This document shows positions 15,802 through 19,281 of a stretch of 64,000 bases of DNA, one piece after another. Both the position numbers and the translations under genes were made by a program. This stretch comes from Pseudomonas rhizophila (GTDB lineage Bacteria; Pseudomonadota; Gammaproteobacteria; Pseudomonadales; Pseudomonadaceae), in the NCBI RefSeq assembly GCF_003033885.1, contig NZ_CP024081.1, positions 3,497,350 to 3,561,349 of the forward strand. Reading direction: 5' to 3'. Position 1 is the stretch's first letter. Each line of letters begins with the position of its first letter. The notes below the pieces were generated by a model. The model did no database searches. It worked only from the letters and a program-made list of their open reading frames with translations, and was not told where the DNA came from.

Positions 15802-18402
15802 TTAGGCTTGAACGACCGGGATGTTGGCATTGGCAGCCGCTTCACGGAACTCGGCGATCTGGTCGAAGCTCAGGTAGCGGTACACGTCCGCTGCCATGCT
15901 GTCGATCTTGCCGGCGTATTCCATGTACTCCTCGACGGTCGGCAGGCGACCCAGGATAGACGCCACGGATGCCAGTTCGGCCGAAGCCAGGTAGACATTC
16001 GCGCCGTCGCCCAGACGGTTCGGGAAGTTACGGGTCGAAGTCGATACCACAGTGGAGTTCGGTTCCACGCGTGCCTGGTTACCCATGCACAGCGAGCAGC
16101 CTGGCATTTCCATCCGTGCACCGGCCTTGCCGTAGATGCCGTAGTAGCCTTCTTCGGTGAGCTGGTGAGCGTCCATCTTGGTCGGCGGCGAGAGCCACAG
16201 ACGGGTTGGCAACTGACCCTTGACCTGTTCCAGCAACTTACCGGCAGCGCGGAAGTGGCCGATGTTGGTCATGCACGAACCGATGAACACTTCGTCGATC
16301 TTCTGCCCAGCGACGCTGGAGAGCAGGCGGGCATCGTCCGGGTCGTTCGGCGCGCAGAGCACAGGCTCCTTGACGTCGGCCAGGTCGATCTCGATGACTT
16401 CGGCGTATTCGGCGTCCTTGTCGGCTTCCAGCAGTTCCGGGTTGGCCAGCCAGGCTTCCATCGCCTGGGCACGACGCTCCAGGGTGCGGGCATCGCCGTA
16501 GCCTTCGCCGATCATCCAGCGCAGCAGGGTGATGTTCGATTGCAGGTATTCGGCAATCGATTCCTTGGACAGCTTGATGGTGCAACCGGCAGCCGAACGT
16601 TCGGCCGAGGCGTCGGACAGTTCGAACGCTTGCTCGACGGTCAGGGTTTCCAGGCCTTCGATTTCCAGGATGCGGCCGGAGAAGGCGTTCTTCTTGCCTT
16701 TCTTCTCGACGGTCAACAGACCTTTCTGGATCGCGTAGTAAGGGATGGCGTGAACCAGGTCACGCAGGGTGACGCCTGGTTGCAGCTTGCCCTTGAAGCG
16801 AACCAGGATCGATTCCGGCATGTCCAGCGGCATGACGCCAGTGGCGGCGGCGAACGCCACCAGGCCAGAACCGGCCGGGAACGAGATACCGATCGGGAAA
16901 CGGGTGTGGGAGTCGCCACCGGTGCCGACGGTGTCCGGCAGCAGCATGCGGTTCAGCCAGCTGTGGATGATGCCGTCGCCCGGACGCAGGGACACGCCGC
17001 CACGGGTCATGATGAAGTCAGGCAGGGTGTGGTGGGTGGTCACGTCGATCGGCTTTGGATAGGCCGCGGTGTGGCAGAAGGACTGCATCACCAGATCGGT
17101 CGAGAAGCCCAGGCACGCCAGGTCTTTCAATTCGTCGCGGGTCATCGGGCCAGTGGTGTCCTGGGAACCCACGGTGGTCATCTTCGGCTCGCAGTAGGTG
17201 CCCGGACGAACGCCGGTCACGCCGCAGGCCTTGCCGACCATTTTCTGCGCCAGGGTGAAACCCTTGGTGCTTTCGGCCGGGGCTTCCGGCTTCTTGAACA
17301 GGTCCGAAGCGGGCAGGCCCAGCTCGGCACGTGCCTTCTCGGTCAGGCCGCGACCGATGATCAGCGGGATACGGCCGCCGGCACGCACTTCGTCCAACAG
17401 GACCGGGGTCTTCATTTCGAAGGTGGCCAGGACTTCATCAGTGCCGTGCTTGCAGACTTTGCCAGCATGCGGGTACAGGTCGATCACGTCGCCCATGTGC
17501 ATGTTGGACACATCGAATTCGATCGGCAGGGCGCCGGCGTCTTCCATGGTGTTGTAGAAAATCGGGGCGATCTTGCTGCCGAAGCAGAAACCACCGGCGC
17601 GCTTGTTCGGCACGTAAGGCACGTCGTCACCGAAGAACCACAGCACCGAGTTGGTGGCTGATTTACGTGACGAACCGGTACCGACCACGTCACCGACGTA
17701 GGCGATCGGGAAGCCCTGGCCGCGCATCTCTTCGATCTGCTTCATCGGGCCGGTCTTGCCTTGTTCATCCGGCACGATACCGTCACGGGCCATTTTCAGC
17801 ATGGCCAGGGCGTGCAGTGGGATGTCCGGGCGGGACCAGGCGTCAGGAGCCGGGGAGAGGTCGTCGGTGTTGGTTTCGCCGGTAACCTTGAACACCCGAA
17901 GGCTGATCTTGTCGGCCAGCACGGGGCGGTTCTTGAACCACTCGCCGTCGGCCCAGGATTGCAGCACGCCCTTGGCGTGAACGTTGCCATTGCGGGCTTT
18001 TTCAGCCACGTCGTGGAAGGCATCGAACATCAGCAGTGTGTGCTTGAGTTCTTCGGCGGCTACGGGCGCCAGTTCGGCGTCGTCCAGCAGGTCCACCAGG
18101 GTCACGATGTTGTAGCCGCCCTGCATGGTGCCGAGCAGTTCAACGGCGCGCTTCTTGTCCAGCAGAGGGGATTGGGCTTCGCCTTTGGCCAGGGCGGACA
18201 GGAAACCGGCCTTCACGTAGGCGGCTTCGTCGACTCCAGGCGGAACGCGATTGGTGATCAGGTCAACGAGGAAAGCTTCTTCGCCAGCCGGAGGATTCTT
18301 CAGCAGCTCGATCAGGCCTGCGGTTTGTTCGGCGTTAAGCGGCTGGGGAACGATACCCAGTGCTGCACGCTCTTCGATATGTTTGCGGTAGGCTTCAAGC
18401 AC
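15802..18402 (-). CDS. acnB: Aconitate hydratase B
   Basis: 866-aa [4Fe-4S] aconitase B (E. coli AcnB is 865 aa) interconverting citrate and isocitrate in the TCA cycle. The cluster ligands are visible as [11 protein letters not shown] and [11 protein letters not shown]. The N-terminal HEAT-like domain ([22 protein letters not shown]), characteristic of the B type, is intact. The start is GTG 18402 behind GAGGG at 18415-18411 (8-nt spacing); the ATG at 18417 would overlap that site. It has a long structured leader and its own terminator. PrrF sRNAs are known to act on acnB in Pseudomonas; no PrrF site was checked here. Confidence 0.97.
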
Positions 18403-18702
18403 AGTTATTACCCTCATCAGTGGTCCCAAATGGGTGTCCGGGACGCTCATCCAGAAACCCACGGTACTCATGCGCGTCGGAGGCTTTTTGAGCCACCACG
18501 CCAGAGTTTCCGCGAGTTCCTCACAGAAGCTGCTTTCAAAGTTTTACGCCTGCAGAACGGGGAGCTGATGAGGGTTGGCGTTGGGCTTTCCCCGCTGGAA
18601 AGACCCTCGGCCAACACCGCTCTGAAGGAACGACTGTGCTCGTGACGCTTTGAAAACAGCTTCTAACGGACATTGGCGCCTTAAAAGGCTGGCTGATTCT
18701 AC
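18403..18702 (-). promoter_or_regulatory. Structured 5' leader of acnB, candidate cis-regulatory RNA
   Basis: On the acnB strand an outer stem pairs 18664-18648 with 18541-18525: 17 consecutive pairs including one U-G wobble, which would be a C-A mismatch in RNA from the other strand. Inside it, GTTGGC (18615-18610) pairs with GCCAAC (18579-18574), and GGGTCTTTCC pairs with GGAAAGCCC (18606-18583) with one bulge. The segment 18575-18565 (ACCCTCATCAG) is a perfect 11-nt complement of 18420-18410, which contains the acnB Shine-Dalgarno. A possible -10 (TAGAAT, 18701-18696) follows a T-rich tract. Function is inferred from pairing only. Confidence 0.6.
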
Positions 18703-18729: not shown

Positions 18730-18747
18730 CCCCTGAAGTTTGAGGGG
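18730..18747. promoter_or_regulatory. Small inverted repeat between acnB and the DUF1289 gene
   Basis: CCCCT and AGGGG arms separated by 8 nt, upstream of both divergent genes. No T-run follows, so it is not an obvious terminator. It may be an operator or chance. Confidence 0.3.
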
Positions 18748-18810
18748 TGATCAATCTTAGACAAAGGGCTAACATGCCGGCCTGTCCTGCTTTTGCGTGT
18801 GTTTTTCCTT

Positions 18811-19281
18811 ATGCCCAACCAGCTCATCAAGACCCCCTGCGTCGGCCTTTGCTCCACTGTCTACGGTGACCTGGTGTGCCGTGGCTGCAAGCGGTTCCAC
18901 CATGAAGTGATTCATTGGAACGGCTATAACGAGGACGAAAAACGCGCGGTGTGGATGCGGCTTGAGCAGTTGCTGGTCCAGGTGATGGTGGCCAAACTGG
19001 AGGTTTTTGATCCTGCGCTGCTGCGCCAGCAACTGGAAACACGCAAGATTCGTTTTGTGCCGCACCAGTCGGAATATTGCTGGGCTTATCAATTGATCGC
19101 CCGTGGCGCGCGGGTGATCAACAACCTGGAAGCCTACGGCATGGTGCTGATGCCCGAATTTCGCGACTGGGACCTGCCGGACCTGCGCGACGCCATTGAT
19201 CGGGAATTCTTCCTGCTGTCCGAAGCCCATTACCAGCGCTACATCGCGCCGGGCTTCCTGAAGGATGCCATTGGCGGCTGA
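18811..19281 (+). CDS. DUF1289 domain protein (putative Cys4 metal-binding)
   Basis: 156-aa protein of unknown function. The N-terminal DUF1289 module shows four cysteines in TPCVGLCSTVYGDLVCRGCKR (C-x3-C, then C-x2-C), likely binding zinc or an Fe-S centre, followed by a longer C-terminal region with no recognised domain. An in-frame TTG at 18793 could extend it by six residues, but ATG 18811 gives the usual MPNQLIKTPC start. Divergent from acnB; single gene. Confidence 0.8.
   Translation: MPNQLIKTPCVGLCSTVYGDLVCRGCKRFHHEVIHWNGYNEDEKRAVWMRLEQLLVQVMVAKLEVFDPALLRQQLETRKIRFVPHQSEYCWAYQLIARGARVINNLEAYGMVLMPEFRDWDLPDLRDAIDREFFLLSEAHYQRYIAPGFLKDAIGG

Follow-up and report, generated by a model that had tools for sequence, protein, structure and literature searches.

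Why does the gene for aconitase B (acnB) in Pseudomonas rhizophila stand behind a long, nested inverted repeat, and what would such a repeat do for the messenger RNA that carries it? The repeat lies on the acnB (minus) strand of the stretch of DNA that was analysed, 64,000 nt in all and here called the window. In a preliminary description, it had been read as a structured RNA in the acnB leader. We put the probability at about 65% that this leader is a cis-acting element that hides the translation start by pseudoknot pairing and competes for one site with the small RNA PrrF. The main new point, beyond the earlier description, is that two loops of the leader match the acnB Shine-Dalgarno region and start codon. 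The features are collected in Table 1.

Table 1. Features of the acnB leader and translation start, with their positions in the window.
Feature	Position	Strand	Basis or remark
acnB coding region, GUG start	15802..18402	-	open reading frame ending at 15802; start from the context common to relatives
ACUGUGCU, GUG start and flanks	18398..18405	-	target of loop A
acnB Shine-Dalgarno region CUGAUGAGGGU	18410..18420	-	target of loop B; matches PrrF seed
Hairpin GUCCCGGA..UUUGGGAC, directly upstream of Shine-Dalgarno	18423..18444	-	stem letters change together; place nearly fixed
P1, 3' arm	18525..18541	-	letters, repeats, comparison; one position G or A only, opposite U
Conserved core CGUAAAA	18542..18548	-	invariant in 44 sequences
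P2, 3' strand	18549..18560	-	fold and covariation
Loop B, ACCCUCAUCAG, anti-Shine-Dalgarno	18565..18575	-	11/11 complementary to 18420-18410; shares CCUCAUCAG with PrrF seed
P3, 3' strand (GCCAAC)	18574..18579	-	fold and covariation
P3 apical bulged hairpin	18583..18606	-	fold and repeats; varies among species
P3, 5' strand (GUUGGC)	18610..18615	-	fold and covariation
P2, 5' strand	18617..18628	-	fold and covariation
Loop A, AGCACAGU	18633..18640	-	8/8 complementary to start-codon region 18405-18398
Conserved core CGUCACG	18641..18647	-	invariant in 44 sequences; changed in genera g7, g18
P1, 5' arm	18648..18664	-	letters, fold; GAAGCTGTTTTCAAAG identical in 158/159 loci having both arms
Short hairpin GCC-UUUUAA-GGC at predicted 5' end	18678..18689	-	loose GCC..GGC pattern, 157/160 loci
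TAGAAT, predicted -10 box	18696..18701	-	transcription start predicted near 18690

On the minus strand, AGAAGCUGUUUUCAAAG (18664-18648) pairs with CUUUGAAAGCAGCUUCU (18541-18525) to form the helix P1. The 17 consecutive pairs with one U·G wobble that had been described for this repeat are thus present on the acnB strand. The nested GUUGGC/GCCAAC helix (18615-18610 with 18579-18574) and the bulged hairpin at about 18606-18583, which belonged to the same description, both appear in the minimum-energy fold. The ACG of the core CGUCACG can pair with CGU at 18548-18546. A fold of 180 nt reached -70.4 kcal/mol against -53.6 +/- 4.2 for shuffled sequences (z -4.0; 0/200 shuffles equal), and the fold of the 301-nt leader gave z -4.4, with 0/100 shuffles as good. 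The wobble had also been taken to mark the structure as specific to the acnB strand, and two results agree with this. The covariance model scored the site at 134.8 bits on the acnB strand and at 43.4 bits on the opposite strand. On a tree of 100 acnB genes, the site opposite U held only G (69) or A (31), with 12 changes between them. These changes always give a base that pairs with U. The strand argument holds.

Where would the transcript begin, and where does translation start? The acnB open reading frame as listed extends in frame to an ATG at 18471. The GUG at 18402-18400, behind the Shine-Dalgarno region CUGAUGAGGGU (18420-18410), is preferred over this ATG because relatives have the GUG context in common, while the upstream length, and hence the frame, differs. 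The distance from the helix end to the GUG is 122 nt. TAGAAT, which stands 38 nt ahead of the GAAGC.. arm in the window, starts 37-40 nt upstream of that arm in 146/160 loci (135/148 distinct upstreams) and lies within 60 nt of it in 147/160, the extra one at 51 nt. Given this constant distance, the transcript most likely begins near 18690, a prediction that takes the whole domain into the mRNA. The fixed spacing of the -10 box likewise argues against a transcription start downstream of 18525.

Several smaller elements surround the domain. The hairpin just ahead of the Shine-Dalgarno region takes the forms GUCCCGGA/UUUGGGAC, GUUGCGG/CCGCGAC, GCCCUGGA/UCCAGGGC and GUUCCG/CGGAAC, and its stem is absent from 9 of the compared loci. 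Halopseudomonas-type loci, which lack the main leader, have this hairpin too. CUGGAUG (18448-18454, minus strand) precedes this hairpin, has a GGAU form in many relatives and resembles an RsmA/CsrA GGA site. Farther upstream, CCCCUCAAACUUCAGGGG at 18730-18747 (minus strand) is followed by a T-rich run. This terminator-like element sits between the divergent gene at 18793-19281 (plus strand) and the acnB promoter.

How well is the leader conserved? The comparison covered 168 acnB upstreams from 170 loci (80 named genome contigs, 30 loci from a genus search and 60 stretches from a family search), L039 and L179 being too short for the count. Duplicate genomes among them leave 156 distinct upstreams, 148 with the domain. 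Both arms of P1 were found in 159/168 of these Pseudomonadaceae upstreams (148/156 distinct). The arms are absent from nine Halopseudomonas-type loci (L107, L111 and L155-L161, the two named ones being Halopseudomonas), where the element is lacking and the Shine-Dalgarno sequence is the same. One position of the 3' arm of P1 is occupied by G (89) or A (69). The arm otherwise deviates only in L113, a second copy of acnB in Azomonas agilis; the P1 of this locus is GAGGCUACUUUCAAAG/CUUUGAAAAUAGCUUC, with a double change in one pair, one G·U and one mismatch. This second copy (L113, and probably L298 on contig G174:C12) has a shortened leader, and the canonical copy (L271) is found on contig C4. 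A second AcnB, with 76-81% identity over the first 100 residues, was also seen in some genomes from the genus search (G051, G082, G129 and G137).

Among 44 diverse sequences, CGUCACG, CGUAAAA and every P1 column except the G/A one are invariant, in a set that excludes L113 and genera g7, g13 and g18. This set (A1) was obtained by setting aside the long domains L052, L106, L114 and L190, applying a similarity cut that kept 47 sequences and dropping L084, L113 and L194 by hand. The linker from P1 to the start ranges from 49 to 267 nt. Domain lengths run from 77 to 258 nt, with remainders 0/1/2 modulo 3 in 60/71/29 of 160 loci. A coding sequence inside the domain was rejected because the lengths spread over all three remainders.

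The structure was further examined by covariation. In a MAFFT alignment of 23 sequences, 11/39 pairs changed on both sides, compared to 6.1 +/- 1.4 in shuffles (0/500) and 1-5 in slid structures. This set (A2) was hand-picked from groups where P2/P3 and CCTCATC align, and its structure was hand-written from its own folds. CCCTCATC is invariant in A2, a count biased by the hand-picking. The covariance model R1 was built from A2 and searched against 75 loci; 74 were aligned to it (A4), and L113 failed. In A4, 19/39 pairs changed on both sides (shuffles 14.5; slides 5-10), and 215 compensated cells were counted against 57.5 in shuffles and 17-40 in slides, numbers that lean towards the structure because A4 was aligned to R1. 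All double changes fall in P2 and P3; P1 and ACG/CGU are too invariant for covariation. RNAalifold, run on the 44 diverse sequences with their inner parts poorly aligned, recovered P1 and ACG/CGU only, with no double changes. Covariation had been proposed as a check on the leader. The inner helices carry abundant compensatory changes; the long helix is near-invariant and does not covary. A conserved family, compensatory changes and a constant place strongly support a structured acnB leader RNA.

What do the loops of this structure face? The complementarity between the loops and the translation start came from a repeat search of the leader. Loop A matches the start codon and its flanks, and loop B, whose first two bases overlap P3, matches the Shine-Dalgarno region. 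In the predicted ensemble, the mean unpaired probability is 0.57 for loop B and 0.71 for loop A. The matches were compared with 310 control start regions, taken with a simple gene finder from 400 kb of the own genome and from the window. None of these (0/310) equalled the acnB start region in pairing with loop B plus flank, and 5/310 did so with loop A plus flank; when total duplex energy across the whole domain was used instead, 15/310 were equally strong. The net energy of opening and pairing was -10.6 kcal/mol for loop B with the Shine-Dalgarno region, -7.6 kcal/mol for loop A with the start and -18.3 kcal/mol for both, topology penalties being ignored. Both pairings would be pseudoknots with P1.

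The two matches are kept to different extents across the family. Measured against dinucleotide shuffles of each locus's own core, the loop B match reached p < 0.05 in 20/42 loci, with one further at 0.050. The weak matches are those of most Stutzerimonas-type, g9 and g17 loci, of several g6 loci, of g19, and of L064 and L085. CCUCAUC lies inside the domain in 117/148 distinct loci and in 90 of the 100 tree sequences, while the hand-picked set A2 has it without exception, and the folds place it in the P3 apical loop, not beside P3, in L061, L093 and L095. For loop A, the pair CACAGU with ACUGUG is kept in 140/160 loci (129/148 distinct), and the shorter CACAG with CUGUG in 7 more (also 7 among the 148). 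L114, L195 and six distinct oryzihabitans-type loci have lost the loop A pairing.

Do loop and start region change together within one mRNA? Genus g13 is the most telling case of co-change between loop and Shine-Dalgarno region. L272 and L273 have the Shine-Dalgarno region ACAAAGAGGGUAA and a shortened leader with ACCCCUCUUU or ACCCUCUUU; in L273, the Shine-Dalgarno sequence AAAGAGGGU goes with the loop ACCCUCUUU. In L274 of the same genus, the loop GUAUUACC matches GGUAAUAC just ahead of the start. In P. fragi (L088), the Shine-Dalgarno sequence AAUGAUGAGG goes with the loop UUCAUCAU; the match is shorter than usual, 8 pairs including a wobble (p 0.15). L192 has GAUGAGGU, with one G fewer, and the loop ACCUCAUC, and no clean co-change of that kind was seen in L191 of the same genus. 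Loop A varies in a similar manner: the start AUUGUG goes with CACAAU in L110 and with CAUAAU in L167, and the pairing takes a G·U form in L095/L164. When own start regions were compared with those of other groups across 20 lineage groups, chosen after the sequences had been seen, own pairing was stronger than permuted pairing (p = 0.0005), and 17/20 group residuals favoured the own start region. The two g13 groups supply 15.8 of the 26.6 signal units (p = 0.048 without them), and the own start region ranked first in 2/20 rows only.

Loop B also resembles part of PrrF, a Fur-controlled small RNA of iron starvation. The genome of P. rhizophila has two PrrF genes, located elsewhere than in the window, and the PrrF family of Rfam (RF00444) gave no match in the window. 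Loop B and the PrrF seed have 9 nt in common, CCUCAUCAG. The PrrF stretch pairs with the acnB Shine-Dalgarno region, and the predicted duplex with this site is -20.6 kcal/mol for loop B and -17.9 kcal/mol for PrrF. Over the whole mRNA, PrrF-leader duplex prediction returned many long, gapped alignments of similar energy. The 9 nt are found in 25/26 PrrF sequences, and UCUCCUCAUCAGGCUAAUCACGG is exact in 11/12 PrrF sequences of one set (L249, from a Stutzerimonas-type genome, has CAUCAAG) and 11/14 of another. The Shine-Dalgarno sequence is conserved also where the leader is lacking, and pairing with PrrF may be the reason. The leader resembles PrrF1/PrrF2 in this common sequence and in the acnB site that each could pair with; it differs in being part of the acnB mRNA, whereas PrrF is described as acting in trans. 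The preliminary description had suggested a platform for small RNAs, and the sequences give this idea a twist, as the loop seems to carry the PrrF seed sequence instead of a PrrF binding site. In the g13 genome G160 and in P. fragi, CCUCAUCAG is retained in PrrF, but loop B has changed along with acnB. For this reason, the preferred reading of loop B is that of a partner in cis, which follows the acnB site of its own mRNA rather than PrrF: the 9 nt are present in the loop B of the window but are not retained where the acnB site differs.

How could these parts work together? The first ~290 nt of the acnB mRNA would form a conserved cis-regulatory leader. The near-invariant, 16-17-bp P1 would close the domain, and the inner arm of P2 and P3 would hold up two mostly unpaired loops. 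With loop B on the Shine-Dalgarno region and loop A on the start codon, both pseudoknotted with P1, ribosomes would be blocked from starting. In this way, we infer that pairing in the cell represses acnB and that the leader sets, and probably switches, its translation. P1 and the conserved core would serve to sense some signal. With 9 nt of loop B identical to the PrrF seed, leader and PrrF would compete for one site. Occupation of that site by the leader would keep translation low but spare the message the decay expected from PrrF. Overall, the leader most likely controls the amount of aconitase B that is made.

A difference between protein and transcript has been reported for P. fluorescens Pf-5 under iron limitation. 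AcnB protein was lowered (log2 -1.57/-0.86) and the acnB transcript was not (+0.29/not significant) (PMC3377617, Table 6), which counts in favour of the leader reading. As options, the authors of that study named post-transcriptional control or protein instability (PMC3377617). The low AcnB in Pf-5 could come from protein instability, a point against the leader reading.

Could the leader sense a signal directly? It is possible, at odds that we set below even, that the domain is a sensor for a ligand or protein, riboswitch-like or bound by apo-aconitase, with CGUCACG/CGUAAAA and P1 as the binding site. The loop-start matches would then be the means of switching or would be secondary; this overlaps with the cis-pairing reading, and the odds of the two need not add up to one. 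Among the 44 sequences, the letters of P1 and the core themselves, and not merely their pairing, are invariant, as would be expected of a recognition site. In E. coli, apo-AcnB was reported to bind its own mRNA at a stem-loop in the 3' UTR (PMC7821165). By analogy, the two systems may be alike in the post-transcriptional, iron-responsive control of the same enzyme; as described for E. coli, they differ in that the control element is in the 3' UTR there and in the 5' leader here (PMC7821165). P1 persists in g7 and g18 with a diverged core, which speaks against one fixed pocket as a universal feature.

A known sensor family finds no support in Rfam either. In the window and 10 related loci, no Rfam family, known riboswitches included, reached its gathering score; a known Rfam family was rejected on this basis. 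At a loose threshold, snoU82P alone appeared, far below its cut-off (E 0.17) and on the other strand. Iron-responsive elements are bound by aconitase/IRP1, and the likeness is that aconitase is tied to an iron-linked mRNA structure. CAGUG is the core of the IRE loop. It is absent from 18690-18400, and the IRE gave no match at gathering score in the window or the 10 related loci.

Does loop B instead owe its sequence to PrrF? It would then shield the PrrF site, or the leader would be processed into a trans-acting small RNA that carries a copy of the seed; we consider this unlikely. We know of no processed RNA derived from this leader. The 9 nt common to loop B and PrrF fit such an origin, as does a stable hairpin that could be released. 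In P. aeruginosa, low iron was reported to lower acnB mRNA in a prrF-dependent manner (PMC2851614). Against this origin, the PrrF seed core stays the same in g13 and P. fragi, where loop B has changed together with the acnB start region. The simplest form, in which loop B mimics PrrF for action in trans, is disfavoured on the same grounds. The two ideas may also be combined, although we regard the combination as improbable: a signal (apo-aconitase, an Fe-S or a TCA cue) at P1 and the core of a sensing RNA would set how far an imitation of the PrrF seed occupies the message's own ribosome-binding site. A self-occupied site would block translation yet keep PrrF and mRNA decay away. The message would stay silent and ready for re-use once iron is available again, and g9 and other lineages whose loop B is weak would depend on PrrF-driven decay.

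A long double helix at the 5' end could also serve as an mRNA stabiliser or as an RNase III substrate, with the loop complementarity incidental. P1 is a near-perfect helix of 16-17 bp near the predicted 5' end, is the most conserved part of the domain and is largely kept in g7, where the remainder diverged. We find this reading doubtful, as by itself it explains neither the sequence invariance of P1 nor the co-change of loops and start region.

How widespread is the leader, and does it occur away from acnB? Under stricter filters, and with matches counted wherever they lie, the model matches 160/198 genomes of the family in 17/19 genera. Among 145 genomes from the order, 5 match, all of them Pseudomonadaceae, again under stricter filters. 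In 185 genomes from the class, matches were limited to the own genome, G162 and a weak one in G509 (32 bits) that does not stand before acnB. The element stands before acnB in the distant genera g7, g13 and g18 as well, with the core or inner arm altered and most of P1 kept. The g7 loci L283 and L284 keep 13 outer P1 pairs, and five of six g18 loci have one G·U. The model match in L282 is an acnB leader met on the reverse strand. Two weak model matches were seen off acnB, at L290:1501-1647 (37 bits) and L269:1501-1651 (32 bits). Both are long hairpins with the common inner motif CGGAG..UAC....GUA..UGAG.AUUC and could be an unrelated repeat family. An Rfam check of L290, L269 and L282 gave no match.

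Within the own 5.9-Mb genome, the covariance model finds one site, seen on both strands, and a genome-wide DNA search returned the own site and 13 short matches (best E 0.15). A mobile, MITE-like origin had been named as an alternative; the repeat is single-copy and not scattered, and a mobile repeat was rejected. The exact 24-nt arm pattern was absent from the viral contigs searched. A DNA-level feature, either a transcription-factor inverted repeat or a MITE-like element, is thus largely refuted and very improbable: P1 is indeed an inverted repeat with near-invariant arms, but it is single-copy, its inner helices show RNA-type covariation, the model score is strand-specific and only G or A occurs at the wobble, results on which a DNA-only inverted repeat was rejected.

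Where does the acnB leader stand among known systems? Riboswitches and leaders that sequester the Shine-Dalgarno sequence include SAM-II, preQ1 and ribosomal-protein leaders. They resemble the acnB leader in having a structured 5' domain with a loop complementary to the ribosome-binding site, and in some of them the pairing is a pseudoknot. The acnB leader differs in its two separate loops, one for the Shine-Dalgarno sequence and one for the start codon, and in having no Rfam match. No description of an acnB leader was found in titles and abstracts of the open-access literature searched. As a kind, the translational leader is known; as a family, this one is not in Rfam, and the overlap with a small RNA seed is an unusual trait.

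In conclusion, acnB encodes an Fe-S enzyme central to the TCA cycle and is a reported PrrF target. A leader found in 17/19 sampled genera would add a cis layer to the iron control of central metabolism in Pseudomonas. The gap between acnB transcript and protein reported for Pf-5 in low iron (PMC3377617) becomes directly testable. If true, the cis-pairing reading would be a clear example in which a cis element competes with a trans-acting small RNA for one ribosome-binding site.
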